Made by a program: the position numbers and the translations under genes. DNA of 64,000 nucleotides. It comes from Deltaproteobacteria bacterium. Lineage in GTDB: Bacteria; Myxococcota_A; UBA9160; PR03. The stretch's first letter is position 1; every line of letters begins with the position of its first letter. This document shows, in pieces, positions 43,232 to 64,000 of this stretch. Under the pieces are notes generated by a model. It was not told where the DNA came from. It did no database searches and was given only the letters and a program-made list of their open reading frames with translations. The stretch spans positions 124,001-188,000 of the forward strand of contig JAPSFT010000009.1 in assembly GCA_035063765.1 (NCBI GenBank), written 5' to 3'.

Positions 43232-45341
43232 GCCGCTCGAGCCGCTGCGCGTCGAGCGCAGCGCGAAGCCCGTAACCCCGATCACGCTGGCTCCCCCGAC
43301 CTCGCTCGAGCCCGGGGTCCGCGCCGACGGGCTCCTGCGCCGCGGCGAGCGCCTCTTCCAGCTCCTCGACGCCGCCCTCGGGCGCTTCCTCCCGGTGGCC
43401 TGGAACCCCTTCCTCCACACGGGCGCCGTCGCGATCACCTCGCTCGCCGTCGCCACGGTGAGCGGGATCCTGCTCCTGCTCTGGTACCAGCCGAGCGTGC
43501 ACGGGGCCTACGCCTCGGTCGCGGCGATGGGGGAAGCGCCGCTCACGGCGGGCCTCGTGCGATCGCTGCACCGCTACAGCTCGGACGCGGCGATGCTCTT
43601 CATCCTCGTCCACGCGCTGCGCATCGTCTTCGAGCGCCGCTTCGGCGGCGCGCGCTGGCTCGCCTGGGTGACGGGGATCGCCGGACTCGGCCTCCTCTGG
43701 CTGATCGGCTGGACCGGCTACTGGCTCGTGTGGGACGTGCGCGCGCAGCACATCGCGCTCGGCTCGGCGCGCCTGCTCGACGTGCTGCCGATCTTCGTCG
43801 ACCCGATGGGCCGGTCGTTCCTGACCGACGAGGGCGTCAACTCGCTCCTCTTCTTCGTCGTCTTCTTCATCCACATGCTGCTTCCGCTCGGGCTCGCCGT
43901 CGCGCTCTGGCTGCACATCACGCGCCTCTCCCGGCCGCGCTTCCTCACGAACCGCCCGCTCACCGTCTGGCTGCTCGCCTCGCTGGTGCTGGTCTCGCTC
44001 GCGAGCCCGGCCACGAACGCAGCGCGGGCCCGGATGACGGAGGCCTCCCCCGGCTTCGCGATGGACTGGTGGTACCTGGCGCCGCTCGCGCTGACCGACC
44101 GCCTGGGCGGGGGCGCGCTCTGGGCGCTGTTGCTGGTGGGCGGAGCGATCACCTTCTCCTTCCCCTGGTGGATGCGCCGGCGGCGCCTGCCGAAGGCCTT
44201 CGTGACCACGTCGCGCTGCAACGCCTGCCGGCAGTGCTTCGAGGACTGCCCGTACAACGCGATCTCGATGGTGCCCCGCACGGACGGCAAGCCCTTCCCC
44301 GAGCAGGCGGAGGTGGACCCCGCCAAGTGCGTGTCGTGCGGGATCTGCATCGCCTCCTGCTCGACGATCGGCACCGACCTCGAGGGCTTCGGGCTGACGC
44401 CCCTGCGGCGCCGGCTCGAAGCCTGGGTGCGCGAGGCGACCGAGGCCGGGAGCCCCGTCCACGTGCTCTTCGCGTGCGCCGAGTCGAGCGCCGACGACCT
44501 CGGGGTGGACCCCGAGACGGGTACCTGCGCGGCGTTGCCCGGCTGGCGCGTGCTGGCGGTGCCGTGCACCGGCTGGGTGCACTCGCTCACCGTCGAGCGC
44601 GTGCTGCGGCGCGGGGCGCTGGGCGTCGCGATCGCGGGCTGCGCCGCCGGCTCGTGCCACTTCCGCGAAGGCGACGAGTGGCTGCTGCAGCGCCTCGCCG
44701 GGGTGCGTGCCGTCGAAGTCTCGCCCGAGGTCGCGGAGAGCGGGCGCGTGCTGATCGCGCCGCTCGCGGGGCTGCGCGGCCGCGCCCTGGTCCGGGCGCT
44801 CGAGCGCTTCGCGGGACGCGAGACGGTGGTGGCGGCGCCGCCGCCGCGCCGCCCGCTCGTGGCGGCGGCGGCCACCGTGCTGGGTCTCGCGGTCGCCGCC
44901 GTGCTCGGCACGGTGGCAGACCTCGGCTACGCGGCACCCGGCATCGACGGCTCCGAGCTGGTCGTGAGCTTCAAGCACCCCGGCGCCGTGAGCGAGCACT
45001 GCCGCACGCTCTCGCCCGAGGAGCTCGAAGCGCTGCCCGTGCACATGCGGCGGCCGGAGGTCTGCGACCGCGCGCGCGCCGACGTGCGGCTGCACGTCTC
45101 CGTCGACGGCAAGCCCGTGCTGGACGGCCGCTACCCGCCGAGCGGCATCTGGGGCGACGGCAACAGCGTCGCGGTCGAGCACATCCCGATGACCCCCGGC
45201 GAGCATCACGTGACGGTGGCGATCGGCGACACGCACGATCCCGAGGCCTGGGCCTTCCAGATCGAAGAGACGCTCGGCTTCGGCGAGAACGCGCGGCGGG
45301 TACTGACCTTCGACCGCCTCGCCGGCTTCCGGTGGCACTGA
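43221..45341 (+). CDS. Cytochrome b - 2[4Fe-4S] ferredoxin - MvhD-like fusion
   Basis: 706 residues. Residues about 60-320: cytochrome b N-terminal type, with four His ligands (H117, H131, H218, H232) placed as in PetB, and extra helices. Residues 331-382: two [4Fe-4S] clusters (C333, C336, C339, C343 and C370, C373, C376, C380). Residues about 412-500: an MvhD/FrhD-like domain (VHVLFACAESS, then AIAGCAAGSCHFREGD) with Cys at 419, 436, 449, 474 and 479. A TM helix follows at about 546-566, then a periplasmic beta domain to 706. This joins quinone-linked heme b, iron-sulfur relay and a hydrogenase/heterodisulfide-type adaptor in one chain, an uncommon combination. Confidence 0.85.
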   Translation: MTAEPLEPLRVERSAKPVTPITLAPPTSLEPGVRADGLLRRGERLFQLLDAALGRFLPVAWNPFLHTGAVAITSLAVATVSGILLLLWYQPSVHGAYASVAAMGEAPLTAGLVRSLHRYSSDAAMLFILVHALRIVFERRFGGARWLAWVTGIAGLGLLWLIGWTGYWLVWDVRAQHIALGSARLLDVLPIFVDPMGRSFLTDEGVNSLLFFVVFFIHMLLPLGLAVALWLHITRLSRPRFLTNRPLTVWLLASLVLVSLASPATNAARARMTEASPGFAMDWWYLAPLALTDRLGGGALWALLLVGGAITFSFPWWMRRRRLPKAFVTTSRCNACRQCFEDCPYNAISMVPRTDGKPFPEQAEVDPAKCVSCGICIASCSTIGTDLEGFGLTPLRRRLEAWVREATEAGSPVHVLFACAESSADDLGVDPETGTCAALPGWRVLAVPCTGWVHSLTVERVLRRGALGVAIAGCAAGSCHFREGDEWLLQRLAGVRAVEVSPEVAESGRVLIAPLAGLRGRALVRALERFAGRETVVAAPPPRRPLVAAAATVLGLAVAAVLGTVADLGYAAPGIDGSELVVSFKHPGAVSEHCRTLSPEELEALPVHMRRPEVCDRARADVRLHVSVDGKPVLDGRYPPSGIWGDGNSVAVEHIPMTPGEHHVTVAIGDTHDPEAWAFQIEETLGFGENARRVLTFDRLAGFRWH

Positions 45342-50359: not shown

Positions 50360-52033
50360 TCAACGGCTCGCCCGCCAGGGATCCCAGCCCGCGGCGAGCG
50401 GCGGGAGCCGGGCCGGGTCCCCGATGCGCTCGCCGGCGCGCAGCAGGGCGAGGAGATCCGTCTCGAGGACCGCGCCCGCCGCGACGACGCCGCTGCGCAG
50501 CACGTTGGCGATGCCATGGCCCGAAGGGGTGCTCGCCCCGGCCAGGAAGAGCCCGCCGATCTCGGTCTCGGGACCGATCCGCAGCGGGCCGATCTGGTCG
50601 AGTGCCGGCTCGATGCCGTAGGAGGTGCCACCCGTCGAGCGCGTGAAGCGCTCCTGGGTCACCGGCGTCGCGGACTCCTTCCACACCACGTGCTTCGCGA
50701 GCCCGGGGATCACGCCGTCGGCGATCCCGATCAGTCGCTCGACCAGCTCCGCCTTGCGGCGGCGGTACTCGCGATCGAGGTGGTAGCGGTTGTTGCCCGC
50801 CTCGTGGGGGCCCTGCCCGACGTTCCACAGCGCGTACTCGCGCGGGACGAGGGTCATGATCTGGAGGTTCGTGTGCCCCTTCGGCGCGAGGTGGGGATTG
50901 CCGGGGTCCTTCAGCGACGCCGCCGTCACGTAGGCGAGCGGCGTCGTGCTCATCTGCCCGCTCTCGAGCTCCTGGTAGATGCCCTCGATGTCCGTGCTGC
51001 CCCAGATCCAGTAGTTCGTGTTCGGCACGCCGAGGCTGGCGAGGTCGACGTCGAGGTCGAGGTAGCTCGCGAAGAGCGGCAGCGTCATCCGGAAGCCCCG
51101 CACGCGGCCGGCCGTCTCCGGGCGCAGGTGCTCGGCGCCCACCAGCTCGAGGAGTGTCCGCTTCAGGTCGGCGTTCGAGACCACGACGGGCGCCTCGATC
51201 CGCTCTCCGTTTCGCTCGAGGACGACGCCGCGGACGCGCCCGCCTTCGATCTCGATGCGCGACACCGCCGTGCGCACACGCACCTCGCCCCCGAAGGCCC
51301 GGATCGCCTCGACGAGGCGTGCCGCCAGGACCTGGCCCCCGCCTTCGGGGTAGAAGGCGCCGCGCATGTAATGGTCGGTGAGGCCGGCCGCCAGGAAGCA
51401 GGGCGTCTTCGAGGGGCGCACGCCGTAGTCGCCCTGCTCGCCGAGCAGCACCGCCTGCGCGCGCTGCGAGAGGCCGTGCGCGGCGAACAGCTCCGTCACC
51501 GGCCGCAGCGCCCAGCGCGCCACGTTCGGCGCCGACGCGAAGATCTCGCCGGCGGCCGCCTCGCGGTTCTGCAGCCTCCGTCCCTGCTCGCCGAGCTCGC
51601 GCAGGAGGTCGACGCTGCGGCCGAGCGCCTCGCGCTCCTCGGGAAAGGCCTCGAGCAGGCGCGCCTTGTAGCGGTCCCAGCCGACCGGCACCCGGAAGCG
51701 GAAGCCGGGGAAGACGAGCGTCGAGAAGCCGTCGGGGTCGAGCGGCCGGAAGACGACGCGCTCGGCGAGCCCGAGACCGTCGAGGACGCGCGTGATCACG
51801 CCGTCGCGCCCACACTCTCCGATGTAGTGGATACCGACGTCGAACTCGTATTCGTCGCCGCGTACGCGGCGACGGAAGACCTGCGAGTTGCCGCCGGCGA
51901 CGGAGTGCGCCTCCAGCACGAGCGTGCGCCGGCCCGCGGCGCACAGGTACGCGGCACACGCGAGCCCACCGAGGCCCGAGCCGATCACGACGGCGTCCCA
52001 GCCCTGGCGCGGTGCGGCCGAAGCGGCGGTCAC
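50360..52033 (-). CDS. FAD-dependent oxidoreductase, phytoene desaturase/retinol saturase-like
   Basis: 557 residues from a GTG. An N-terminal FAD/NAD(P)-binding Rossmann motif is seen (VVIGSGLGGLACAAYL). The middle part contains FDVGIHYIGECGRDGVITRVLDGLGL and the C-terminus GLFLAGASTPSGHGIANVLRSG, matching carotenoid/retinol-type desaturases and saturases of the NAD(P)/FAD family. It acts on a hydrophobic polyene or similar substrate, unknown here. It stands alone, divergent from lemA. Confidence 0.85.
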   Translation of the reverse strand: MTAASAAPRQGWDAVVIGSGLGGLACAAYLCAAGRRTLVLEAHSVAGGNSQVFRRRVRGDEYEFDVGIHYIGECGRDGVITRVLDGLGLAERVVFRPLDPDGFSTLVFPGFRFRVPVGWDRYKARLLEAFPEEREALGRSVDLLRELGEQGRRLQNREAAAGEIFASAPNVARWALRPVTELFAAHGLSQRAQAVLLGEQGDYGVRPSKTPCFLAAGLTDHYMRGAFYPEGGGQVLAARLVEAIRAFGGEVRVRTAVSRIEIEGGRVRGVVLERNGERIEAPVVVSNADLKRTLLELVGAEHLRPETAGRVRGFRMTLPLFASYLDLDVDLASLGVPNTNYWIWGSTDIEGIYQELESGQMSTTPLAYVTAASLKDPGNPHLAPKGHTNLQIMTLVPREYALWNVGQGPHEAGNNRYHLDREYRRRKAELVERLIGIADGVIPGLAKHVVWKESATPVTQERFTRSTGGTSYGIEPALDQIGPLRIGPETEIGGLFLAGASTPSGHGIANVLRSGVVAAGAVLETDLLALLRAGERIGDPARLPPLAAGWDPWRASR

Positions 52034-52227: not shown

Positions 52228-52848
52228 ATGCACTCGATCTGGCTGATCGCCGGCGCACTGGCGCTCTTCGCGCTCTGGATGCTCGAGGTGGACGGGCGCT
52301 GGCTCGCCGCCGGCGCGGTGGCGTGGCTCGGGCTCGCCTTCAACTCCGTGATCCACGCCCGCAACGCGGCGGAGACGGCGCTCGCGAGCGTCGGCGTCAT
52401 GCTGAAGAAGCGCTTCGACCTGATCCCGAACCTGGTCGACACCGTGCAGCGCTACGTCGAGCACGAAGCGGATCTGCTGGCGGAGCTGGTGCGCCTGCGC
52501 GCGCAGGCGGTACAGCTTCCGCCCGAGCAGGCGGCCGCCGTCGACGGCCAGATCGGTCCGGCCGTGAGCCGGATCCTCGCGACCGCCGAGAGCCACCCCG
52601 AGCTCGAGGCGAGCGAGACCTTCCAGCAGCTCCAGCGCTCGCTGAACGAGGTCGAGGAGCAGATCTCGGCAGCCCGGCGCAGCTACAACATGGCGGTCAA
52701 GGGCTACAACGACGTGGTCCGGATGTTCCCGACCAACCTCCTGGCGCTCGTCCTGGGCTACCGGGAGCGGCCGTACTTCGAGGTGCCCGCGGGCCACGAC
52801 GCAACGCCCGAGGTGATGGCGCGCTTCCGGGCCCACCAGCGCTCCTGA
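52228..52848 (+). CDS. lemA: LemA family protein
   Basis: 206 residues. One membrane helix near the N-terminus (about 4-40), then the LemA blocks NAAETALASVGVMLKKRFDLIPNLV and YNMAVKGYNDVVRMFPTNLLA, with FEV before the C-terminus. The family makes a long helical bundle; its role is not firmly known. The start at 52228 is chosen because the upstream open frame is shadow-like. The DUF3137 gene follows after three bases, a recurrent association. Confidence 0.9.
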   Translation: MHSIWLIAGALALFALWMLEVDGRWLAAGAVAWLGLAFNSVIHARNAAETALASVGVMLKKRFDLIPNLVDTVQRYVEHEADLLAELVRLRAQAVQLPPEQAAAVDGQIGPAVSRILATAESHPELEASETFQQLQRSLNEVEEQISAARRSYNMAVKGYNDVVRMFPTNLLALVLGYRERPYFEVPAGHDATPEVMARFRAHQRS

Positions 52849-52851
52849 GCC

Positions 52852-53826
52852 ATGCGCTCGCCCGAGGAGTTCGAGGCGTTCCTGCGCGGCGAGCTCGCGG
52901 GCCTGCTCGCGGACGTGGAGCGCGAGCGCCAGGCGGTAGGCGCACGCAGGCAGGCAGCCCGGCTGCCGGCGCCCTGGAAGCTCGGGATCGGCGCCGCCGG
53001 CGTGGCCCTCGGTACGTGGGTGGGGAGCTTCGAGCTGGTCGTGCTCGGGATCGTGCTGCCCTTCGCGATCGACGCCCTGCGGATGCTGCGCGTTCCCGAC
53101 ACCGCCACCCCCCGCATCCGCCAGGAGGTGCTGCGGCGGGCCGTCGAGTTCTGGGACCCGAGCTTCCGCTATCTCCCGAAGGGCTCGATCACGCGCGCCG
53201 AGTTCGACGCGAGCCGCCTCTTCGAAGGGGAGCCGATCCATCGCTTCCGCGGCGAGGACCTGGTGCAGGGCCGCCACGGGGCCACGGCCTTCCGCTTCTC
53301 GGAGCTGCGGGCGGTGCGGGTGCGCCGGCGCGGCAAACGGGTGGAGGAGGTCCCCGTCTTCCACGGCCTCTTCTTCGTCGCCGACTTCCCCAAGCACTTC
53401 GGCGGCACGACGCTCGTGCTGCCCGACCGGGCCGAGCGGCGCCTCGGAGCCTTCGGCCGCTCGCTCCAGGCGCTCGACGGGGTCTCCGGGCTGCGCCTCG
53501 TGCAGCTCGAGGACCCCGGCTTCGAGCGCGCCTTCGCCGTCTACGCGAGCGACGACACGGAGGCCCGCTACCTGCTCTCGCCCTCGCTCATGGAGCGCCT
53601 CCGGCGCTTCCACGAGAACACGGGCTCGCAGCTCCGCGTGAGCCTCTGCAGCGGGCGCGTGGCGATCGCGATCCCGCTCGCGACCGACTTCTTCGCCGTC
53701 GACACCGCCGCTCCGCTCGAGGCCTCGACCCTGCGCCGCTGGATGGGCGAGCTGCACTTCGCGACCGGCATCGTGGACGAGCTCGACCTCGACACGCGCA
53801 TCTGGTCGAAGCCCCCCGCCGCCTAG
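52852..53826 (+). CDS. DUF3137 domain protein
   Basis: 324 residues. Two close hydrophobic helices near 43-75 (LGIGAAGVALGTWVGSFELVVLGIVLPFAI) are followed by the cytoplasmic DUF3137 region (EVLRRAVEFWDPSFRYLPKGSITRAEFDASRLFE, then FSELRAVRVRR and VFHGLFFVADFPKHFGGTTLVLP). It is commonly adjacent to lemA, as here, so the two probably act together at the membrane. Function unknown. Confidence 0.85.
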   Translation: MRSPEEFEAFLRGELAGLLADVERERQAVGARRQAARLPAPWKLGIGAAGVALGTWVGSFELVVLGIVLPFAIDALRMLRVPDTATPRIRQEVLRRAVEFWDPSFRYLPKGSITRAEFDASRLFEGEPIHRFRGEDLVQGRHGATAFRFSELRAVRVRRRGKRVEEVPVFHGLFFVADFPKHFGGTTLVLPDRAERRLGAFGRSLQALDGVSGLRLVQLEDPGFERAFAVYASDDTEARYLLSPSLMERLRRFHENTGSQLRVSLCSGRVAIAIPLATDFFAVDTAAPLEASTLRRWMGELHFATGIVDELDLDTRIWSKPPAA

Positions 53827-53872
53827 GCCGGACCGGCTGGCCGGCCGCTAGGCCGGACCGGCTGGCCGGCCG
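53823..53872. repeat. Tandem 25-base repeat at convergent gene ends
   Basis: Two exact copies (53823-53847 and 53848-53872) each contain the stop codon of one of the convergent genes and GGCCGG/CCGGCC self-complementary sequence that can form hairpins. It may act as a bidirectional terminator; the duplication may be recent. Confidence 0.6.
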
Positions 53873-54438
53873 CTGCGGCGGAGCGCGCGCCACGCCACGA
53901 GCAGCGAGACGGCGATCCCGTAGGCGATCGCCGCGAGCACGATCGCGAACTTGAGCGCGGCGCAGGCGGCGGCCCACGCCGCCCGGGTGCCGTCGGCGCC
54001 GGATTCGAGCTGCGCGAGGAGCTGGCGGTTCTCGACGGCGTCGAGCGCGCCGGCAGCCAGCAGCGCCCAGGCGAGGACGACCCCGAGGCGGGACGCACCG
54101 GGGCGTCCCGCGCGCCGCGCTCCCCAGGCCACCCAGGCCGAGAGCGCGACGACGTAGAGCGGGATGAAGACGGCGCCGTCCCAGAAGGTCTGGGTGCGCG
54201 CGGCCTCGCGGGCGGCGCCGTCCCAGGAGGCGAGGATCTCGCCCGCGCGCGCGGCCGTGCCCGCGAGCTCGAAGTCGACGATCCCGGACGGGCTCGCGGG
54301 CGTGACGAGCGGCCGCCCGAGCGCGGACATCCAGGCGCTCGCGGCGAGCAGCGCGAGCAGCAGGCCGAGCACGAGCCGCGACTCGAAGCGCGCGGGGAGC
54401 GGGATCGGGACGCGCGTGCCCCGCTTCGAGGACGTCAC
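53848..54438 (-). CDS. Four-helix membrane protein of unknown function
   Basis: 196 residues with about four hydrophobic segments (around 23-40, 88-110, 119-135 and 162-184). The loop after TM1 is Pro/Ala-rich. I do not recognise the family. The ATG overlaps the stop of the four-domain fusion gene upstream, so it is co-transcribed with it. Its stop lies within the tandem repeat at 53823-53872. Confidence 0.65.
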   Translation of the reverse strand: MTSSKRGTRVPIPLPARFESRLVLGLLLALLAASAWMSALGRPLVTPASPSGIVDFELAGTAARAGEILASWDGAAREAARTQTFWDGAVFIPLYVVALSAWVAWGARRAGRPGASRLGVVLAWALLAAGALDAVENRQLLAQLESGADGTRAAWAAACAALKFAIVLAAIAYGIAVSLLVAWRALRRSGRPAGPA

Positions 54439-57400
54439 GCCATGAGGTCGCCGAGCGCGCGCAGCTCGGCGACGACCTCGTCGGGCAGGGTGGGAGGCTC
54501 GCGGCCGACGGCGCGGCAGCCGAGGATCACCTGCGCCGAACGCTCGATGATCTCGCAGCTGTCGGCGGCGCGGCGCAGGCTGCGGCCCGCGACGAGCAGG
54601 CCGTGGTTCACCATCAGCACGGCCCAGCTCCCGCGCGCGGCCTCGCCGACCGCCTTCGCGAGCGCCTCGCTGCCCGGCATCACGAAGGGCACCCGCGGCA
54701 GCTCGCCGAAGAAGGCCGCCTCGGTCGAGATCGGCAGGAAGGGGAGGCCGGCGTTGGCGAGGATCGTCGCGTGCGGCGCGTGCGCGTGCACGACGGCCTG
54801 CGCCTCGGGTCGGGCTTGATACACCGAACAGTGCATGAGGCGCTCGCTCGACGGGGCGGCCCCCGGGGTCTCGAGCGTCGCGCCGTCGAGCCCGACCCGG
54901 ACCAGGATCTCGGGCCGCAGGTCGCCCTTGAAGAGCTGGCTCGGCGTGATCCAGAGCTCGTCGCGACCCGGAATCCGCACCGAGACGTTGCCGCCGGTCG
55001 CCGTGATCAGCCCCTGGGCGTAGAGCTCGCGCACGACCTCGACGAGCTCCTCGCGCAGCGCGTCCGGTGCCGACTCGGATCGCGGCGGATCCGCGCCGAG
55101 CGCCGCCAGGTCGCCGGGATCGCCGACCTCGTCACGCGCGGCGCCGTAGTGGCGCGAGAGCGCGGGCTGGATCTGCTGCAGGGTCATCGCCTTGGCGGCG
55201 TCGCCGGTGAAGGAGAGGCGGCCCTCCATCGCGGCCTGCATCGGGTTCAACCGCCCGGTGAACATCCCGTCGAGCACGTCGGCGGGCAGCGTGAGCTCCA
55301 CCTCGGGGCGCCCGTCGGGCGCGCCGAGGGCGCCCGCGAGGCCGGCCCGCAGGCGCAGCCAGAACGCGAGGCCGAGGTCGTCGAGCCGGAAGTGCAGGGT
55401 CACGTCGTGGTCGCCCGCGAAGCGGGCCAGCTCCGGGTCGGCGAGCGCGCGCGCGACGAAGCCCGCGAGCAGCCGCTCCATGTGTGCCCGCACCGGGCCG
55501 GCAGCGGCCGCCGCGCGCGAGCTGCGGCCGGGCGCTGCGCCAGCGGGCGCGGCGGCACGCCGCTCGATCCCGGAGACGGCGGGTGTGGCGGCGTCGCGCT
55601 GGAGGTCGGAGACGGCGGGGGCGGGGCGGCCGGCGAGGGCGGCCAGGCGGGCGCCGTCGGGCGCGGGGCGCGGGGCGGTCCAGGAGAAGCCGTCGAGGGT
55701 CTCGGGGTTCCGGACGTGCAGGGGGCGCTCGCCGCGGACCAGGCGGGCCAGGTCGGCGGCGACGATGCGGCCCTGGTGGGCGCCCACCTCGTGGGTGTTG
55801 CCGCCGACGTGGGGCGTTGCGATCACGTGCGGGAGCTGGAGCAGCGGGTGGTCGGCGCCGGGCGGCTCGACGGCGAAGACGTCGAGCGCGGCGCCGGCGA
55901 GGTGGCCCTCGCGCAGCGCCGCGGCGAGCGCGTCCTCGTCGACCAGCGCGGCGCGCGCGGTGTTGATCAGGAACGAGCCCGGCCGCATGCGCGCGAGGCG
56001 CGCCGCGTCGAGCAGGCCGCGGGTCGCGGCCGTCACCGGCGCGTGGAGGCTCACGACGTGGCTCAGCGACAGGAGCTCGTCGAGCTCGAGCCACTCGGTG
56101 TCGGCGAGGGCCGCGGCCTCGGGCGAGACCAGGGGATCGTGGACCACGACGCGCACGCCGAAGCCGTGCAGGCGGCGCGCGACGCCGCGCCCGACCGCGC
56201 CGAGCCCGACGAGCCCGACCGTCTTGCCGCCGAGCTCGTGGCCGCGCAGCTGCGAGAAGGCCTGCCCCATCCGGCCCAGGTCGCCGGCCGCGATCCCGGG
56301 CTGGCGCAGGAAGGCCCCGGCCTCCGGCAGCTTGCGCAGGAGCGCGAGCGCGCAGGCCACGGTCAGGTCCGCCACGGCGTCGGCGTTGCGGCCGGGCGCG
56401 TGGAGGACCGGGATGCCGTAGGCGCTGCAGGCCTCGACGTCCACGTTGACCGCGTCACCCCGGCACGCGGCGACCACCCGCAGCGCCGGCAGGCGGGCGA
56501 GCGCGGCTGCGTCCACCACGTCCACCTCGGTCACGAACACCGCGAAGCCGGCGAGCGCCTCGACCAGCGCCGGTCCGGCCAGGAGCCGCATCGCCTCGCG
56601 GAAGGGCGCGTGCTCGACCGGGCCCAACGCGCGCAGCGCGGCGAGCGAGTCCGGATCGAGGTCCGCGGTCGCGAGGATGCGCGGCGTGACGCCCGCTTCG
56701 CCTGCGACGCTCGCCCGGGCCCGCTCGCGCAGGAGCTCCGGGAGCAGGCGCTCGCCGGCGGGCGCGTCGGCCGAGGCTCGCGCCTCGGCGTGGCGGCGCC
56801 ACACATGATAGTGTCGATCGTAGGCCGCGAGGCGGGCGGGGTCGGGCTCCGCGGCGACGCCGTCGGGGGCGGCGAGCCGCGCCCCCTCGCCGAGGTCGCG
56901 GAACACGCCGGCCGCGACGCCCGCGCACAGCGCCGCACCGAGGGCGCTCGCCTCGGGCGCGGGCCCGGTGCGGATCGGCACGCCGAGGACATCGGCCAGC
57001 ACCGCGAGCCAGGTGGCGCTCGCGCCCATGCCGCCGGCCGCATGGACGGCGTCGGGCGTCAGGCCCGCGACCCCCGCCGCCCGCGCGAGGTTCGCGCGCA
57101 CGGAGAAGGCCGCGCCTTCGACGAAGGCGCGCGCCGCGAGCCGGCGCCGATCGGGATCGCCGGCCGCGACCAGCGGCGAGAACGCGAGGCTCGTGATCGG
57201 GAGCCCGAGCGCGCGCGGGTCCGAGGCCGGCGGGCCGAAGCAGGCGAGCGTGCCGGCCGCGCCCTGCGGCGCGCGCGCCGCCTCGGCGAAGAGCCTCGCG
57301 ACCGGCCGCGGCGCACCCGGGAAGAGCATGCCGGCGGCCCAGTCGAGCGCCTCGCCGAGCGGCCCCGCGTTGCTCTCGAGCACCCAGCGGTCCGGCACCA

Positions 57401-58262
57401 CGTGGCGCTCGGTCCAGACGCGCGCCTCGGGATCGACGATCGCCCGCTCGCAGACGAGCTGCACAGGAGCGCTGGTGCCCGTCACGAGCCCCGCAGCCCC
57501 GGCGGCGATCGCACCGGCTCCGAGCAGTGCGCACTGGGTGTCGGCGCCGCCGGCTGCCACCGCGAGGCCCGCGCGCAGGCCGAGCGCGCCCGCCGCCTCC
57601 GCGCCGAGCGCGCCGATCCGCGCTCCGGAGGCCACGATCGGCGGGAGCCAGGCGCGCGGGATCGCGTTCGCGTCGGCGAGATCCCCGGCCCACGCGTCGC
57701 GAGCCAGGTCGAAGAGGCCGCTCGTGCTCGCCTGCGAGAGATCGGTGGCGAGCGCGCCGCACAGCCGGAAGGCGATCCAGTCGGAGAGCGCGAGCGCGTG
57801 GGCGACCTGCGCCGCACGCTCCTCGCGTACGAGCCAGCGCAGGCGGGAGAGCAGCGAGAACGGGGCGGGTCCGTGGCCGGTGCGCGCGTGCAGCGCTGCT
57901 CCCTCCGCGGCGGGCTCGCCACACACGCCGGCGGGGCGCGCGTCGCGGCTCGGGGCCGCGAAGAGCGGCGTCCCGTCGCGAGCGATCACGACGTTCGCGA
58001 AGCGCATCGCCGAGGCCGCGACGCCACCGATCGAACCCGGCGCGACCCCCGCTCGCCCGACGGCCTCGCGGACGGCGGCTGCGATCGCCCGCCAGGCCGC
58101 GTCGAGGTCGAGATCGACGCCCATGCCGCCCGTTCCCGAGGCCGGCCGGTACGCCCAGGGATGGCGTGCGCTCGCGAGCGGCCCGCGCGCAGGGTCGAGG
58201 ATCAGCGCGCGGATCCCGCTCCCGCCCGCATCGAGTCCCAGCAGCAGCTCGCTCGGCGCCAT
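54435..58262 (-). CDS. Four-domain fusion: FGGY kinase, D-2-hydroxyacid dehydrogenase, SCP2, class II aldolase
   Basis: 1275 residues in one frame. Residues 1-495: FGGY kinase (LGLDAGGSGIRAL, TGTSAP, and GGADTQ with catalytic D241). Residues 528-855: D-2-hydroxyacid dehydrogenase (GLVGLGAVGRGVARRL; catalytic R770, E799, H818). A variable linker (about 865-920) is followed by an SCP2-like domain (925-1035). Residues 1067-1270: class II aldolase/adducin with zinc His H1159 and H1161 (HAHAPH), H1220 (VNHGLLVAG) and E1181. The kinase resembles the tetronate/autoinducer-2-type branch. Together the domains would phosphorylate, oxidise and cleave a sugar acid, with SCP2 holding a hydrophobic part; that order is inference. 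Co-transcribed with the membrane protein at 54438. Confidence 0.85.
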   Translation of the reverse strand: MAPSELLLGLDAGGSGIRALILDPARGPLASARHPWAYRPASGTGGMGVDLDLDAAWRAIAAAVREAVGRAGVAPGSIGGVAASAMRFANVVIARDGTPLFAAPSRDARPAGVCGEPAAEGAALHARTGHGPAPFSLLSRLRWLVREERAAQVAHALALSDWIAFRLCGALATDLSQASTSGLFDLARDAWAGDLADANAIPRAWLPPIVASGARIGALGAEAAGALGLRAGLAVAAGGADTQCALLGAGAIAAGAAGLVTGTSAPVQLVCERAIVDPEARVWTERHVVPDRWVLESNAGPLGEALDWAAGMLFPGAPRPVARLFAEAARAPQGAAGTLACFGPPASDPRALGLPITSLAFSPLVAAGDPDRRRLAARAFVEGAAFSVRANLARAAGVAGLTPDAVHAAGGMGASATWLAVLADVLGVPIRTGPAPEASALGAALCAGVAAGVFRDLGEGARLAAPDGVAAEPDPARLAAYDRHYHVWRRHAEARASADAPAGERLLPELLRERARASVAGEAGVTPRILATADLDPDSLAALRALGPVEHAPFREAMRLLAGPALVEALAGFAVFVTEVDVVDAAALARLPALRVVAACRGDAVNVDVEACSAYGIPVLHAPGRNADAVADLTVACALALLRKLPEAGAFLRQPGIAAGDLGRMGQAFSQLRGHELGGKTVGLVGLGAVGRGVARRLHGFGVRVVVHDPLVSPEAAALADTEWLELDELLSLSHVVSLHAPVTAATRGLLDAARLARMRPGSFLINTARAALVDEDALAAALREGHLAGAALDVFAVEPPGADHPLLQLPHVIATPHVGGNTHEVGAHQGRIVAADLARLVRGERPLHVRNPETLDGFSWTAPRPAPDGARLAALAGRPAPAVSDLQRDAATPAVSGIERRAAAPAGAAPGRSSRAAAAAGPVRAHMERLLAGFVARALADPELARFAGDHDVTLHFRLDDLGLAFWLRLRAGLAGALGAPDGRPEVELTLPADVLDGMFTGRLNPMQAAMEGRLSFTGDAAKAMTLQQIQPALSRHYGAARDEVGDPGDLAALGADPPRSESAPDALREELVEVVRELYAQGLITATGGNVSVRIPGRDELWITPSQLFKGDLRPEILVRVGLDGATLETPGAAPSSERLMHCSVYQARPEAQAVVHAHAPHATILANAGLPFLPISTEAAFFGELPRVPFVMPGSEALAKAVGEAARGSWAVLMVNHGLLVAGRSLRRAADSCEIIERSAQVILGCRAVGREPPTLPDEVVAELRALGDLMA

Positions 58263-58374
58263 CTGGAGAGCCCCTCTGGTCGGCCGGATCCGGGGGCATG
58301 GTAGGTCGAGCCGGAGCCGATGGCTTTCACCCACCCGGGCGCGCGCGCACACGCGCCGTTAGGCTCCGCCCTCC

Positions 58375-60648
58375 ATGCGTGCCGAGGCCTCGCTCCGCTC
58401 GCCCTTCGCCCGCCTGGGCGCATGGGTCGGCGCCCGGCCCCGGCGGATCGTCGCCGGCTTCGCGGGGATCCTCGCGCTCGCGGCCAGCTATGGCGCGTCG
58501 GTTGCCGACCATCTGCCGACCGCCGGCCTCGAGGTGATCGGGAGCGAGTCGGCCTGGGTGCGCGAGGAGTCGGCGCGCCGCTTCGGGCTGGGCTCCGCCG
58601 ACGTCGTCGTGCTCTACCGCAACCCGGAAGGCGACGTGCGCGATCCCCTGTTCGGCTCGCGCATCGTGGACGCGCTCGACGCGGTGCTCGCCGACCCCGG
58701 CGTGCTCGGCGCCACCAGCCTCTACGACACCGCCTCCCCCGCGCTGGCCTCGCGCGACGGGCGCGAGACCCTCGTCACCCTCTCGCTCGGCGGCGACAGC
58801 ACCCAGAAGCTCGCGACCTACCGGCGCATCGACCCGCTGCTGCGCGCCGTCGAGCCGCCGGTCGAGATCCGGATCGGGGGCCTGGTGCCGCTCTCGGGCG
58901 CGCTCCAGGACACCGCGCGCGCGGATGCCTTCCAGGCCGAGCGCGTGGCGCTGCCGATCGCCGGCCTCCTGACGCTGCTCTTCTTCCGCAGCGTCGTGGC
59001 CGCCCTGCTCCCGATCCTGATCGGTGGCTTCTCGGTGGCGCTCTCGGCGGCCGCCATGCGCTTCGGCACCCAGTTCACCGAGATCGCGATCTTCGCGATG
59101 AGCGTGGGCTCCTTCCTCGGGCTCGGGCTCTCGCTCGACTACGCGCTCCTCCTGGTGCAGCGCTTCCGCGAGGAGAGCGCGCGCCGGACGTCACCCGTCG
59201 AGGCGGTGGCCGCGACGATGGACACCGCGGGCCGGGCCGTCTTCGTCTCGGGCATGGCGGTGGCGATCAGCATGCTGGCGCTGCTCCAGGTGCCGATGGT
59301 GGTGCTGCGCAGCATCGCGATCGGCGGCGTCGCGGTCGTGACGAGCGCCCTGGTGGGGGCGCTGCTGCTGCTCCCGGCGCTGCTCGCCTGGCTCGGGCCG
59401 AACGTGAACCGCTGGGCGCTCCACCCGCTGGGCCGCTGGGCGGGGCGGCCGCCCGAGGAGATCGCGCCGAGCCCGTTCTGGCGCCGGGTCGGCGAGCTGT
59501 CGATGCGACACCCGGTTACGACAGCGCTCATCTGTGTCGTCGTGCTGCTGGTCCTGGCGAGCCCGGCCCTGCGCATGCGGGGGGCGATGCCCGACTCCCG
59601 GGCGCTGCCCCCCGACTCCGACGTGCGGGTGATCGACGAGCGGCTCTCCGACCCGCAGCGCTTCGATCCGGGTGCCGCCGCGGCGATCCCGGTGCTGGTC
59701 GAGACGCCGGCGCCGGCGCTCGCGCCCGCGAGCCTGCGGGCGCTGCGGGAGCTCACCCGCCGCATGGAGGCGCTGCCCGGCGTCGAGGGCGTGCGGGGAG
59801 CCTTCGACGAGCTGGACCCGGCGCTACCGGCCGGGGAGCTCGAGCGGCGCATGGCGCGCGAGCCGACGGCGTCGCTGCTCGCGCGCACCGTCGAGGGCTC
59901 GACCGCGCTGCTGATCGTGGACCATCCCTACTCGTGGCGGTCCGCCGAGGCGACGGCCCTGGTCGAGGCGCTGCGCGCCCTGCCCCGCGACGGGCTCGTG
60001 GTCGGCGTCGGAGGCCCGACGGCTCAGACCCTCGACCAGATGCACGCCCTGCGCCTCCACGGCACCGCCGCCGTCCTCACGATCGCCGCCCTGAACCTCG
60101 CGATCCTGCTCTTCGCCTTCCGCTCGATCGCGGTGCCGATCAAGGCGATCGTGATGAACGTGCTCTCGCTGGGGGCCAGCTACGGGCTCCTCGTGTGGGT
60201 GTTCCAGGAGGGCCACGGCCTCGGCTGGCTCGGTGCCGTCCCGCTCGACGGCATCGACTCGACCGTGCCGCTCGTGATGTTCGCGGTGATCTTCGGCCTC
60301 TCGATGGACTACGAGGTGTTCCTGCTGAGCCGGATCCGCGAGGAATGGCTGCGCAGCGGCGACAACCGCGAGAGCGTGATCCAGGGCCTCGCCTGCACCG
60401 GACGCATCATCACGAGCGCCGCGCTGATCCTGCTGGTCGTGGTGGGCGCCTTCGCGACCGGGGACATGATCTACGTCAAGCAGATGGGCCTCGGGATGGC
60501 GGTGGCCATCGCACTCGACGTGACGCTCGTGCGCGCGCTGCTGGTCCCGGCGACGATGCAGCTCCTCGGCGTCTGGAACTGGTGGCTGCCGCGCTGGCTG
60601 CGCGCGGGCGGCGTGGCCGCCGCGGAGGAGCGGCCGGCCGAGCCCTGA
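58375..60648 (+). CDS. MMPL-family transporter
   Basis: 757 residues, two six-helix RND-like halves. The family motifs are GLGLSLDYALLLVQRFREE in the first half (TM4-like, with the proton-relay Asp) and IFGLSMDYEVFLLSRIREEW in the second. The two periplasmic loops are short compared with AcrB. Relatives move lipids, hopanoids or glycolipids across the inner membrane. It is divergent from the fusion gene, 112 bases apart, with no obvious shared operator. Confidence 0.9.
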   Translation: MRAEASLRSPFARLGAWVGARPRRIVAGFAGILALAASYGASVADHLPTAGLEVIGSESAWVREESARRFGLGSADVVVLYRNPEGDVRDPLFGSRIVDALDAVLADPGVLGATSLYDTASPALASRDGRETLVTLSLGGDSTQKLATYRRIDPLLRAVEPPVEIRIGGLVPLSGALQDTARADAFQAERVALPIAGLLTLLFFRSVVAALLPILIGGFSVALSAAAMRFGTQFTEIAIFAMSVGSFLGLGLSLDYALLLVQRFREESARRTSPVEAVAATMDTAGRAVFVSGMAVAISMLALLQVPMVVLRSIAIGGVAVVTSALVGALLLLPALLAWLGPNVNRWALHPLGRWAGRPPEEIAPSPFWRRVGELSMRHPVTTALICVVVLLVLASPALRMRGAMPDSRALPPDSDVRVIDERLSDPQRFDPGAAAAIPVLVETPAPALAPASLRALRELTRRMEALPGVEGVRGAFDELDPALPAGELERRMAREPTASLLARTVEGSTALLIVDHPYSWRSAEATALVEALRALPRDGLVVGVGGPTAQTLDQMHALRLHGTAAVLTIAALNLAILLFAFRSIAVPIKAIVMNVLSLGASYGLLVWVFQEGHGLGWLGAVPLDGIDSTVPLVMFAVIFGLSMDYEVFLLSRIREEWLRSGDNRESVIQGLACTGRIITSAALILLVVVGAFATGDMIYVKQMGLGMAVAIALDVTLVRALLVPATMQLLGVWNWWLPRWLRAGGVAAAEERPAEP

Positions 60649-60657
60649 GCGGGCCGG

Positions 60658-62457
60658 CTAGGGCGCCGGGCGCAGCGCCACCATCACGTGGGTGAGCCAC
60701 GGCACGTAGGTGACGAGCAGCACGCCGAGGGCCAGGATCGCCAGCATCGGCAGCGCGGCCCGCGCCACCTCGACGAGCGGGCGGTCGAAGCGCTGCGAGG
60801 CGAGCAGCAGGTTCAGTCCCATCGGCGGCATCAGGTAGCCGAGCTCGAGGTTCGCGATGAAGAGGATCCCGAGGTGGACCGGGTCGACGCCGTAGGAGAG
60901 CGCGATCGGCACGATCAGGGGCACCACGACGACGGTGGCGGCGAAGATGTCCATCACGGAGCCGACGACCAGCAGGAACAGGTTGAGCCCGATCAGGAAC
61001 ACCTCGCGCGAGGCGACGTGCGAGCGCGTCCAGTCGAGGAGCTGCGCCGGCACCTGCGCGTTCACGAGCCAGCCGGTGAGGCCGACCGCGACGCACAGGA
61101 TGAGGAGCACGCTGCCCTTCAGGACGTTGCACTCGGTGAGGACGCGGAAGAGCTCGCGGGGCCCGAGGTCGCGGTGGACGAGGCCCTGGACCCCGAGCGC
61201 GTAGAGCGCCGCGACCGCCGCGGACTCGACCGTCGTGGCCCAGCCGCTGAAGAGCGCCGCCATCACCACCACCGGCAGGAGGAGCTCCCACTTCGCGGCC
61301 CACAGGGCGCGCGCGGCCTCGCCGGGCACGAAGGACACGCGGGGCGTCGTGCCGCGCAGGCCTTCGCGGACGCCCCAGGCGGCGATCAGGCTCGTCATCA
61401 GGAAGCCCGGCAGCAGGCCGCCCAGGAACAGGTCCTCGACCGGCACCTGCGCGACCACCGCGTAGAGGATCAACGGCAGGGCCGGCGGGAGCAGCAGCCC
61501 GAGCGATCCCGAAGCCGTGAGCAGGCCGAGCGAGAAGCGCTCGCGGTAGCCGTCGCGCAGGAGCGCGGGCAGGAGCAGCCCGCCGAGGGCCAGGATCGTG
61601 ACGCCCGAGCCGCCCGTGAAGACGGTGAAGAAGGAGCAGAGCACGGCGCAGACCACGGCCGTGCCGCCCGGCATCCAGCCGAAGCAGGCGCGGAAGACGC
61701 GCAGCAGGCGCTCCGAGGAGCGGCCCGCCGCGAGCACCAGGCCGGCCAGCGTGAAGAGCGGGATCGCGGGCAGGGTGGGCGACACCGAGAGCGCGTAGGT
61801 CTCGACCAGGATCGCGGCGGGCGTCACGCCGTCGACCAGGTAGAGCCAGGCCGCGGCGCCGCCCAGGATCGCGAAGATCGGCGCGCCGAGGACGGCGGCG
61901 GCGAGCAGCGCGAGGAGCCCGGGCCAGGCCGGCACCCCGGCGGCGGACGGCCCCTTCCACCAGAGGAGGGTGCCGAGCGCGAGGCCGAGGAGGGCGAGCG
62001 TGCGCGCCGCGGGGGTCGTCCCGGCGCGCCAGACGAGGCGCAGCGCGATCGCCGCGAGGCCCGCCGGCATCACGAGCTGCGTCACCCAGGCGGGCACTCC
62101 GGCGGCGACGATCGTGCCGGCGTCGCGCGTGATGGCGATGAACTCACCCGAGGCGAGCGCGAGCAGCGTCGCCACGGCGGCGCCGATCGCGGCGGCGTAG
62201 ACGCGGGCCGCGGCCCGCGGCCGGCCGGCCGGTACGAAGGTGGCGGCGGCGAGCGCGAGCAGCCGCCCGTCGCGCGCGGCCAGCGCCGCGCCGAGGAAGC
62301 CGACCCACAGGGTCAGGTGCTGCACGAAGGGCTGCGAGCCCGGGATGCCGACGCCGGCCAGCCGGCGCACGACGATCTCGGCGATCGGCAGCACGACCAT
62401 GGCCACGAGCGCGAGGGCCGCCAGGCCCTCCTCGGCCGCCCGCAGCCGGCGGGTCAC
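60658..62457 (-). CDS. TRAP transporter fused permease (DctQ-DctM)
   Basis: 599 residues from a GTG overlapping the DctP stop (GTGA). Residues about 1-150 form the four-helix small subunit DctQ (LPIAEIVVRRLAG). Residues about 165-595 are the large DctM permease of about 12 helices, with GGSGVTILALGGLLLP, ESAAVAALYALG and the closing NLELGYLMPPMGLNLL block. It imports an organic acid together with sodium ions. The substrate-binding protein is the next gene upstream. Confidence 0.9.
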   Translation of the reverse strand: MTRRLRAAEEGLAALALVAMVVLPIAEIVVRRLAGVGIPGSQPFVQHLTLWVGFLGAALAARDGRLLALAAATFVPAGRPRAAARVYAAAIGAAVATLLALASGEFIAITRDAGTIVAAGVPAWVTQLVMPAGLAAIALRLVWRAGTTPAARTLALLGLALGTLLWWKGPSAAGVPAWPGLLALLAAAVLGAPIFAILGGAAAWLYLVDGVTPAAILVETYALSVSPTLPAIPLFTLAGLVLAAGRSSERLLRVFRACFGWMPGGTAVVCAVLCSFFTVFTGGSGVTILALGGLLLPALLRDGYRERFSLGLLTASGSLGLLLPPALPLILYAVVAQVPVEDLFLGGLLPGFLMTSLIAAWGVREGLRGTTPRVSFVPGEAARALWAAKWELLLPVVVMAALFSGWATTVESAAVAALYALGVQGLVHRDLGPRELFRVLTECNVLKGSVLLILCVAVGLTGWLVNAQVPAQLLDWTRSHVASREVFLIGLNLFLLVVGSVMDIFAATVVVVPLIVPIALSYGVDPVHLGILFIANLELGYLMPPMGLNLLLASQRFDRPLVEVARAALPMLAILALGVLLVTYVPWLTHVMVALRPAP

Positions 62458-63467
62458 CGCGCGGCGCCGTGCTCGCGGCGGAAGGCGTCGCGCGCCGCAC
62501 GGGCGCGCTCGAAGACCTCGGCCGGCACGTAGCTGCCGGCCATCAGCGCGGAGAACCGCTCGCCGGCCTCGCGCCAGGCCTCCGGGTCCGAGGGCGCCGA
62601 CACCTCGAGGCCCCGCTTCTGCATCTCGGCGATCGCGTCGCGGTCCTGCTCCGGCACCTCGGTGCGCAGGCGCTCCTGCATGGCCTGGGCCGCCGTGCGG
62701 ACCGCCTTCTGGTCGGCCTCGCTCATCGCCTTCCAGGCCTTGCGCGTCACGATCGTGGCGCCGACCAGGGGCGAGATCCCGATCTCGAGCATGTGGGGCG
62801 CGGTCCGGTACCACTGGAGCAGGAGGGCGGCGATCGGCGTGATCGGCACGGCCTCGATCAGGCCGGTGGTGAGGGCGGTCGGGATGTCGCTGAAGGCGAG
62901 CGGCCGCGGCTGGAAGCCGTTGGCCTTGTACCACTGCACCATCCGGTCGTCGCCGGTGGCGGTGTAGATCGGCAGCGCCTTCAGCTCGGCGAGCGTCGTG
63001 ATCCGGCTCTTGCTGAACACCTGCAGCCAGCCGGCGTCGCCCCAGCCGAGCAGGACGAAGCCCTTCGCCTCGAGGCGCTTCTCGAGCTCGGGCGTGAGCG
63101 CCTGGCGCACGGCCTGGAGCTCGTCGTAGGAGTCGTAGAAGAACGGCACCGCGAAGACGTTGAAGCCGGGGTCGATCTGGCCGAGGCCGATCACGGTGAG
63201 GGCCGCGCCCTGGAGCACGTCGAGCCGCATCTTCGAGACGACCGTCGCCTCCTCGCCCTGCTGGCCGCTCGCGAAGACGGTGAGCGCGACGCGCCCGCCG
63301 GTCGCCTGGCGCCACTCGTCGCCCATCTGGCGCAGGTTCTTGTCCCAGATCGAGCCCTCGGGCACGAACGAGGCCAGCTTGATGGTCACCGGCCGGCCCT
63401 GGGCCGGGGCCGCGAGCGCGGGCGCGAGCAGCGCGAGGGTCAGGGCGAGCGTGCGGGCGGTCCTCAT
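62454..63467 (-). CDS. TRAP transporter substrate-binding protein (DctP)
   Basis: 337 residues. The signal peptide (about 1-21, APA-QG) leads into a mature domain of the DctP type: TIKLASFVPEGSIWDKNLRQMGDEW at the start, and WQVFSKSRITTLAELKALPIYTATGDDRMVQWYKANG-like sequence with the conserved substrate-carboxylate Arg region further on. It captures a carboxylate solute in the periplasm. It overlaps the permease gene (GTGA) and the TatT gene (ATGA), so the three are one operon. Confidence 0.88.
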   Translation of the reverse strand: MRTARTLALTLALLAPALAAPAQGRPVTIKLASFVPEGSIWDKNLRQMGDEWRQATGGRVALTVFASGQQGEEATVVSKMRLDVLQGAALTVIGLGQIDPGFNVFAVPFFYDSYDELQAVRQALTPELEKRLEAKGFVLLGWGDAGWLQVFSKSRITTLAELKALPIYTATGDDRMVQWYKANGFQPRPLAFSDIPTALTTGLIEAVPITPIAALLLQWYRTAPHMLEIGISPLVGATIVTRKAWKAMSEADQKAVRTAAQAMQERLRTEVPEQDRDAIAEMQKRGLEVSAPSDPEAWREAGERFSALMAGSYVPAEVFERARAARDAFRREHGAAR

Positions 63468-64000
63468 GGAGCGTCCCCCCCGGCCGGCGCGCCCGCGAAG
63501 AGCGCGCCGGCAGAAGCGAGCAGGTGGCGGGCGCGGCGCTGCGCGATCGCGTTGGCGAGGCGCTGGCTCGGGTCGCGCTCGGGATCGACGGCGAGCGCCT
63601 GCTCGAGCAGGCGCTCGAAGCCGGCACGGTCGCCGCCGGGCAGGGCCACGCCGACCGCGTAGCTCACGTAGGGTGCGGCACTGGCGCCCTCCGAGAGCTC
63701 GACGGCGCGCTCGAAGTGCTGGCGCGCGCGCGCGCGCGAGCCGCCCATCGCCTCGGGCACCGCGTCGAGCGAGATCAGCGCGGCGTGGATCGCGCCGTGG
63801 CCCCAGCTCTCGTCGAGCGCGAGCGCGCGCGCGAAGAGGGCGCGCACGGCCGGGAGGTCGGCGACCAGGTCGGGGCGGTCGAGCCCGAGCGCGATGGCGC
63901 CGCCCCAGGAGGCGCCGGTCCAGTAGAGCAGCGGGACGTCGGCGGGCTCCGCCCAGCCGAGCGCGTCCTCGGGCGCGCGCAGGAGCGCCTCGCCGACGCC
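63464..64000 (-). CDS. TRAP-associated TatT-type helical protein (partial)
   Basis: The frame is open to the end of the window; only the last 178 residues are present. It has VPLLYWTGASWGGAIAL, typical of TatT (TP0956-like) proteins associated with TRAP operons, and then TPR-like helices (ALFARALALDESWGHGAIHAALISLD, with HFERAVELSEGA). TatT proteins form trimers and are thought to hold the ligand-loaded DctP. Overlaps DctP by ATGA. Confidence 0.8.
   Translation of the reverse strand, partial: GVGEALLRAPEDALGWAEPADVPLLYWTGASWGGAIALGLDRPDLVADLPAVRALFARALALDESWGHGAIHAALISLDAVPEAMGGSRARARQHFERAVELSEGASAAPYVSYAVGVALPGGDRAGFERLLEQALAVDPERDPSQRLANAIAQRRARHLLASAGALFAGAPAGGDAP

Follow-up and report, generated by a model that had tools for sequence, protein, structure and literature searches.

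A kinase–dehydrogenase–SCP2–aldolase fusion protein conserved in class UBA9160, with a tentative role in shortening amphipathic molecules

The window, that is, the whole stretch of 64,000 nucleotides of contig JAPSFT010000009.1 that was analysed, encodes a protein in which an FGGY kinase (K), a D-2-hydroxyacid dehydrogenase (2-HADH; D), an SCP2 domain (S) and a class II aldolase (A) are joined in one chain. Unbroken frames with these four domains were found in one Chloroflexi genome and in 16 genomes, the window's among them, from eight families of the class. The fusion is read here as a single-chain catabolic enzyme that would act on an amphipathic molecule; while SCP2 holds this molecule, its polar end would be shortened and a hydrophobic aldehyde and a C3 phosphate set free. 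This reading is tentative and is given somewhat less than an even chance. A literature search for the set of FGGY, 2-HADH and class II aldolase domains, with or without SCP2, found no published description.

Reading frame, domains and catalytic residues

As shown in Table 1, the fusion gene lies on the minus strand. The GC contents at codon positions 1/2/3 of this frame are 0.82/0.57/0.95 (third position, 0.945), which is a coding signature. Long open frames are also found on the opposite (+) strand, as GC-rich shadow frames expected at 78% GC, and homologues exist for the minus frame only. Pfam places FGGY_N, FGGY_C, 2-Hacid_dh/2-Hacid_dh_C, SCP2 and Aldolase_II along the protein in this order, all exceeding the curated cut-offs, while no domain reaches the cut-off of a named functional family (NCBIfam). 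The sequence-only reading had described a single 1275-residue frame with four domains and complete catalytic sets for the kinase, dehydrogenase and aldolase; the former is confirmed by Pfam, with the named catalytic residues present, and the latter is borne out by Pfam and by residue conservation in the alignment. The predicted structure of the kinase–dehydrogenase half has a mean pLDDT of 80.5. In the AlphaFold model of the C-terminal 418 residues, the SCP2 and aldolase blocks are confident and the stretch preceding SCP2 is disordered.

Table 1. Coordinates of the fusion gene, its domains and its neighbours in the window
Feature	Position	Strand	Details and basis
K-D-S-A fusion gene	complement(54435..58262)	-	1275 aa; ATG at 58262, stop 54435-54437
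FGGY kinase N-terminal domain, aa 7-248	57519..58244	-	Pfam FGGY_N; D11, catalytic D241
FGGY kinase C-terminal domain, aa 260-451	56910..57485	-	Pfam FGGY_C
D-2-hydroxyacid dehydrogenase domain, aa 565-850	55713..56570	-	Pfam; R770/E799/H818
Ala/Pro-rich linker preceding SCP2, unconserved, ~aa 882-925	55488..55619	-	Alignment; model
SCP2 lipid-carrier domain, aa 942-1031	55170..55439	-	Pfam, phmmer
Class II aldolase domain, aa 1071-1246	54525..55052	-	Pfam; E1140/H1159/H1161/H1220; phosphate-site motifs TGGNVS/TPS/PSSE
Small membrane-type protein	53848..54438	-	Start overlaps fusion stop by 4 nt; without Pfam family
Divergent intergenic region, fusion to MMPL gene	58263..58374	.	112 bp; putative shared promoter
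MMPL-family transporter, divergent neighbour	58375..60648	+	Tie to fusion presumed
TRAP transporter	60658..64000	-	DctQM 60658-62457, DctP 62454-63467, TAtT 63464-64000 (runs past window end)

In the kinase domain, FGGY_N is matched at 4.8e-33 (115 bits against a cut-off of 28.8) and FGGY_C at 8.4e-16 (59 bits against 27). The best-matching solved structure is that of an AI-2 kinase (5ya0, 2.3e-52). However, the domain scores 206.9 bits against the 528 bits of the LsrK equivalog NF008187, and the conserved neighbours of the fusion include no lsr genes. The catalytic Asp, D241 of the GGxD motif, is kept in every alignment row that covers the region except L063. In this copy (L063/L083, genome G081), the motif reads GGNAIQC instead of GGADTQC, the catalytic Asp is lost, and the kinase domain may be inactive there, as judged from the sequence.

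The dehydrogenase domain matches 2-Hacid_dh_C at aa 636-820 (1e-54, Pfam), and its best solved structure by sequence is D-3-phosphoglycerate dehydrogenase. With NAD-binding and catalytic domains and the Arg/Glu/His set, it belongs to the D-2-hydroxyacid dehydrogenases, and R770, E799 and H818 are identical in 24 of the 24 aligned relatives. It falls below the equivalog cut-offs of PGDH (201 vs 454), PdxB (119 vs 434) and GhrB (140 vs 492).

The SCP2 profile is matched at 7.9e-13 (49.1 bits against 21.3) over positions 13-99 of 101, and phmmer aligns the domain with rabbit SCP2 (1c44) at 3.5e-5. In the fold search using the SCP2-containing model, the best 50 matches listed were all aldolase-fold entries, and therefore the SCP2 identity rests on Pfam and phmmer. 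The predicted model has pLDDT mostly above 90 in the SCP2 block and below 50 at about aa 885-917, in the linker. All full fusions and the K-D-S forms described below have kept SCP2 (43-65% identity). Its placement on flexible linkers between the dehydrogenase and the aldolase fits a carrier that would present a hydrophobic substrate to the catalytic sites.

The aldolase domain matches Aldolase_II at 1.1e-46 (Pfam). H1159, H1161 and E1140 are identical in all aldolase-bearing rows, and H1220 in all such rows that extend that far; the three metal-binding His with the Glu, the phosphate-site motifs and the fold place the domain in the class II aldolase/adducin superfamily. Its best sequence matches among solved structures are B. 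thuringiensis DrdA, YgbL and FucA, and the fold search with the aldolase part of the model gives DrdA 6btg (TMt 0.92, 32% identity) and FucA (TMt 0.90). All named-family cut-offs are missed, including those of OtnC, a 3-oxo-tetronate-4-phosphate decarboxylase (115 vs 250 bits), and fuculose-phosphate aldolase (95 vs 264). Because the TGGNVS, TPS and PSSE motifs of the phosphate site are conserved, a phosphorylated substrate is very likely taken by this domain. The FucA proton donor Tyr113 is absent, and the position reads I-S-T-E/D in the rows that reach it (ISTEAA in the fusion); therefore, the chemistry need not be simply that of FucA. E1181 is a candidate for the acid/base role.

Distribution, shorter forms and unfused relatives

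The full fusions share 48-58% identity with the window protein. Two further copies are truncated by contig ends, an apparent frameshift interrupts the kinase part of the G079 copy, and two of the fusion-bearing genomes are public 'Deltaproteobacteria' MAGs. Occurrence outside the class was determined by a contig search with one query sequence, which reaches close relatives only. A search for the same architecture and its gene neighbours had been suggested from the sequence, with the absence of relatives named as evidence against the fusion; this absence did not hold: apart from the Chloroflexi genome, 15 genomes of the class besides the window's own carry relatives.

The split G079 copy could be taken to point to an artefact, either an assembly chimera or a fused frame to which no real protein corresponds. 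However, the identical architecture is found in the 16 class genomes and in a Chloroflexi genome whose contig matches the composition of its own genome. Because unbroken frames recur in further genomes at the above identities, a frameshift or chimera is excluded as the origin of the architecture, and the chance of an artefact is considered negligible. The tetranucleotide profile of the Chloroflexi fusion contig matches other contigs of the same MAG at 0.72-0.91, mostly at least 0.83, and this class at 0.42-0.74. A chimeric contig was thus rejected for this copy, and since its profile is that of its own MAG and not that of the class, transfer of the fusion between phyla is likely.

Shorter forms were also found, consisting of K-D-S without the aldolase (G063, G067 and G069) and K-D (G019 and G085), and separate K, D and A genes are present in G084, G056 and G060. 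In the K-D-S and K-D genomes, aldolase genes are only distant, with none in cis. Beside two K-D-S fusions, within a few genes, a family III CoA-transferase adjoins a ThDP enzyme close to oxalyl-CoA decarboxylase (L052 4349-7217 and L053 2658-5524). The unfused aldolase–dehydrogenase–kinase genes of the class lie at L079 1-2673 and 8490-14999 (G060) and L055 9115-12338 (G056); in G060, genes for an FAD_binding_2 protein, a P450, an acyl-CoA dehydrogenase and a CoA ligase are located 6-12 kb away from them.

In the dehydrogenase-domain tree, one clade with a support of 100/99 unites all fused forms and also takes in the G084 and G037 copies and the second copy of G043; the A-D-K genes of G056 and G060 and the plasmid triads fall outside it. 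Closest to the fused clade among the unfused aldolases are those of G019 and G085, each encoded by a standalone gene (99/97). In G085, the aldolase nearest the fused aldolase domains directly follows an APH-type phosphotransferase gene, and this pair (L109 8453-10182, minus strand) is possibly another kinase–aldolase route.

The sequence-only reading had taken it as established that separate kinase, dehydrogenase and aldolase enzymes work together, and such triads were indeed found in Paracoccus, Sinorhizobium (pSymB), Streptomyces and haloarchaeal (Halomarina) plasmids. They consist of the same three enzyme families encoded by adjacent genes (by tblastn for Halomarina), but the genes are separate and lack SCP2, and the kinase match is 26-29% where measured. 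The triad aldolases of Paracoccus, Sinorhizobium and Halomarina keep the Tyr of the FucA HY motif, which is missing from the fusion. Since Tyr113 is replaced by I-S-T-E/D in the fusion and kept in the triads, the acceptor side of the aldolase reaction probably differs from that of FucA. In Paracoccus (L070), CoA-transferases and a ThDP enzyme are also found beside the D-A-K genes.

Gene neighbourhood in the window and in relatives

The usual gene order in the relatives is TetR, cytochrome P450, the fusion as the third gene, sometimes a Rieske oxygenase, and an AMP-forming CoA ligase. This arrangement, often near genes for a lipid-transfer thiolase and a ChsH2-like protein, is newly noted here. 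Start/stop overlaps of 4 nt occur in several of these sets, which are apparent operons as judged from gene order. A P450 gene lies directly 5' of the fusion in seven genomes (G005, G043, G067, G071, G079, G082 and G085), and a CasG-like ligase gene just 3' of it in seven (G004, G005, G006, G007, G071, G079 and G082). TetR is found near the fusion in nine genomes, a KshA-like Rieske gene between the fusion and the ligase in two, an Ltp-type thiolase gene within a few genes in eight, and a ChsH2-like OB gene in five. A longer gene island is found in G082 and G071, where acyl-CoA dehydrogenases, CoA-transferases, amidohydrolases and another KshA-like Rieske protein are encoded, joined by an enoyl-CoA hydratase in G082.

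The ligases score 664-689 bits against NF052580 (steroid-24-oyl-CoA synthetase CasG; cut-off 750), where the next family reaches about 360. The Rieske protein carries KshA_C (Pfam) and best matches 3-ketosteroid 9alpha-hydroxylase KshA in the PDB (4qdc, 2.4e-54). The thiolases belong to the 'lipid-transfer protein' types; in the small OB proteins, both the zinc ribbon and the OB fold of ChsH2 are present. According to the excerpts of two papers (PMC12329534, PMC12882949), CasG and KshA belong to bile-acid catabolism, and the thiolase/DUF35 pairs Ltp2-ChsH2 and Sal-Shy are steroid side-chain aldolases. In the neighbourhoods of the relatives, neither a transporter nor a regulator for sugars is conserved next to the fusion.

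This gene company suggests catabolism of the steroid/terpenoid type rather than ordinary sugar-acid catabolism, and a hydrophobic, ring-type substrate for the fusion. The earlier hint that SCP2 could hold a hydrophobic substrate gains weight from the neighbouring P450, KshA-like Rieske, CasG-like ligase and Ltp/ChsH2-like genes, and the presence of the SCP2 domain becomes intelligible in such company. The likeness to steroid side-chain catabolism (CasG, KshA, Ltp2/ChsH2, Sal/Shy) lies in the families of the neighbouring genes; in contrast, the routes described in the excerpts have neither a kinase nor a FucA-type aldolase, and the steroid aldolases known there are of the thiolase fold (PMC12329534, PMC12882949).

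The P450, Rieske, CoA ligase and Ltp/ChsH2 set present in several relatives is absent beside the window's and the Chloroflexi copies. In the genome of the window (G000), the CasG-like ligase gene is on another contig amid unrelated genes. CasG-like ligases are also present in class genomes in which no fusion was found, such as G002, G013, G033, G048 and G089, and the ligase was rejected as a fusion-specific partner. Because the window's copy has no such neighbours and the ligases are not fusion-specific, the gene company is suggestive of the substrate rather than decisive. In the Chloroflexi genome, the gene just 5' of the fusion encodes an aldehyde ferredoxin oxidoreductase.

Concerning the neighbours in the window, the small membrane-type protein has no relative beside other fusions, and the TRAP/TAtT and MMPL transporters, which are likewise absent there, were rejected as conserved partners. 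In the TRAP transporter, DctQ and DctM are fused into one 599-aa protein, and TAtT is the TRAP T-component. The window further encodes an unusual electron-transfer fusion of 706 aa that joins cytochrome b-like, 4Fe-4S and FlpD-like (methyl-viologen-reducing hydrogenase delta) domains (43221-45341, plus strand), a 557-aa FAD oxidoreductase resembling flavin amine oxidase and phytoene desaturase (50360-52033, minus strand), and two adjoining genes for a LemA-like protein (by eye) and a DUF3137 protein (52228-53826, plus strand).

Possible reaction and alternative functions

The reaction order, products and substrate class that we infer are as follows. SCP2 would hold the hydrophobic body of the substrate, and the FGGY domain would phosphorylate a hydroxyl on its polyol or sugar-acid tail. 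The dehydrogenase would then turn a neighbouring hydroxyl into a ketone, and retro-aldol cleavage by the aldolase would set free a hydrophobic aldehyde and a C3 phosphate, the latter being DHAP or, for a tail with a terminal carboxylate, 3-phosphohydroxypyruvate. This aldehyde could be oxidized to an acid, converted into a CoA ester by a CoA ligase, and passed to beta-oxidation and P450/Rieske degradation. Because the active-site Arg of 2-HADH enzymes normally binds a carboxylate, the chance of a sugar-acid end is no lower than that of a plain polyol.

This shortening of the polar end is supported by the conserved catalytic residues of the four-domain fusions and the retention of SCP2 throughout, by an aldolase fold nearest DrdA (with DHAP) and FucA with conserved phosphate-site motifs, and by the P450, TetR, CasG-like ligase, KshA-like Rieske, Ltp-type thiolase and ChsH2-like OB genes beside the relatives' fusions. 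The aldehyde ferredoxin oxidoreductase gene beside the Chloroflexi fusion fits an aldehyde product. Against this reading, the window's fusion has MMPL and membrane genes as neighbours and adjoins no gene for a P450, a Rieske protein or a CoA ligase, and the K-D-S and K-D forms have no aldolase in cis. The CasG-like ligases of fusion-less genomes, the carboxylate-binding Arg of 2-HADH enzymes and the missing Tyr113 also count against it.

The original proposal was a single-chain pathway for a phosphorylated sugar acid, of which the single chain stands, whereas a plain sugar-acid pathway is not supported in that form, with no conserved sugar transporter or regulator and an aldolase below every named-family cut-off. 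In its fuller form, the catalytic domains would break down a soluble C4-C6 sugar acid, or the corresponding ketone, by way of a phosphorylated intermediate, with SCP2 as a membrane-tethering, oligomerization or scaffold element that has no substrate role. The complete Arg/Glu/His set of the 2-HADH domain is consistent with this, as are the best non-fused enzymes by profile (AI-2 kinase, PGDH/glyoxylate reductase and OtnC/AraD-like) and the unfused triads of Sinorhizobium and Streptomyces beside sugar ABC transporters, polyol genes or a sugar-binding regulator. However, the fusion keeps company with P450, CoA ligase, Rieske and thiolase genes, and the triad aldolases that retain the HY-motif Tyr fall outside the fused clade. 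In addition, C2 oxidation of an aldonate would not be expected to yield a ketone adjoining the CH2-O-phosphate used by FucA/OtnC-type enzymes. The 3-oxo-tetronate pathways (OtnK/OtnC) resemble the fusion in using an aldolase-fold enzyme on a phosphorylated C4 acid, and OtnC is the best NCBIfam match of the fusion aldolase, although at less than half of its cut-off score. OtnK is a DUF1537 kinase, not an FGGY kinase. A soluble sugar acid as the substrate is considered rather unlikely, although more probable than the other alternatives.

In the DHAP shunt, a sugar is phosphorylated and isomerized to a ketose 1-phosphate, which a class II aldolase cleaves into DHAP and an aldehyde (PMC6079011). 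This shunt and the 5-deoxyribose salvage by DrdK-DrdI-DrdA (PMC6079011, PMC12632272) share with the fusion the phosphorylation, the ketone beside the phosphate-bearing carbon and the class II retro-aldol step; the proposed DHAP product would be a further parallel. The fusion differs in having an FGGY instead of an MTR kinase, a dehydrogenase instead of an isomerase, and one chain with SCP2. The shunt's set of MTR kinase or phosphorylase, isomerase and aldolase is incomplete in the fusion, where an isomerase domain is absent. A dehydrogenase in the isomerase's place suits a hydroxyl, not an aldehyde, at that carbon, as in a polyol; with a carboxylate bound by the Arg, a sugar acid would suit as well. 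In this view, the fusion would carry out the route of phosphorylation, ketone formation and aldol cleavage in a single chain with a lipid carrier.

A variant of the DHAP shunt for salvage or detoxification of a 5-deoxypentose-like by-product, in which SCP2 would capture the small hydrophobic aldehyde released, would agree with DrdA as the best fold match and with the standalone aldolases of G019 and G085, the latter beside its phosphotransferase gene. Nevertheless, the lack of an isomerase domain, the FGGY rather than MTR-kinase type, and an NAD-dependent 2-HADH that has no role in that route (PMC6079011) make this improbable.

We give a similarly small chance to a biosynthetic use, in which the aldolase would add a C3 unit to a lipid aldehyde in the synthetic direction to form a polar-headed lipid. 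Class II aldolases are reversible, TetR/P450/ligase sets are found in biosynthetic clusters too, and full squalene-hopene cyclase genes are present in eight of the 21 fusion genomes, including that of the window. The neighbours, however, are of the beta-oxidation type (ACADs, ECH and CoA-transferases). In the scan of 91 genomes, cyclase genes were found in 8/21 genomes with and 15/70 without the fusion, a difference short of significance (Fisher p = 0.15), and a link with hopanoid biosynthesis was left unsupported.

Within the preferred reading of polar-end shortening, a specific version, considered very unlikely, is that the fusion would be the first recognized enzyme for removing the polyol tail from bacteriohopanepolyols or from a comparable polyol of the triterpenoid type. 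The terminal hydroxyl of bacteriohopanetetrol (C35) would be phosphorylated and the adjoining carbon oxidized, and the retro-aldol step would give DHAP and a C32 hopanal; oxidation of the latter would give C32 hopanoic acid, for which the CasG-like ligase could open beta-oxidation. Sedimentary C30-C34 hopanoic acids, including C32, are usually explained by oxidative cleavage of vicinal diols in bacteriohopanoids (PMC4339782).

The fusion is a stable marker gene for a little-studied, uncultured lineage and a testable candidate for opening amphipathic polyols or glycosylated terpenoids. Even if the substrate were a soluble sugar acid, the conserved kinase–dehydrogenase–aldolase chain would be a useful natural cascade enzyme. 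If the proposed reading is true, these bacteria have joined sugar-phosphate chemistry and a lipid carrier in one chain, by which the polar end of an oily molecule would be stripped before its rings are degraded.
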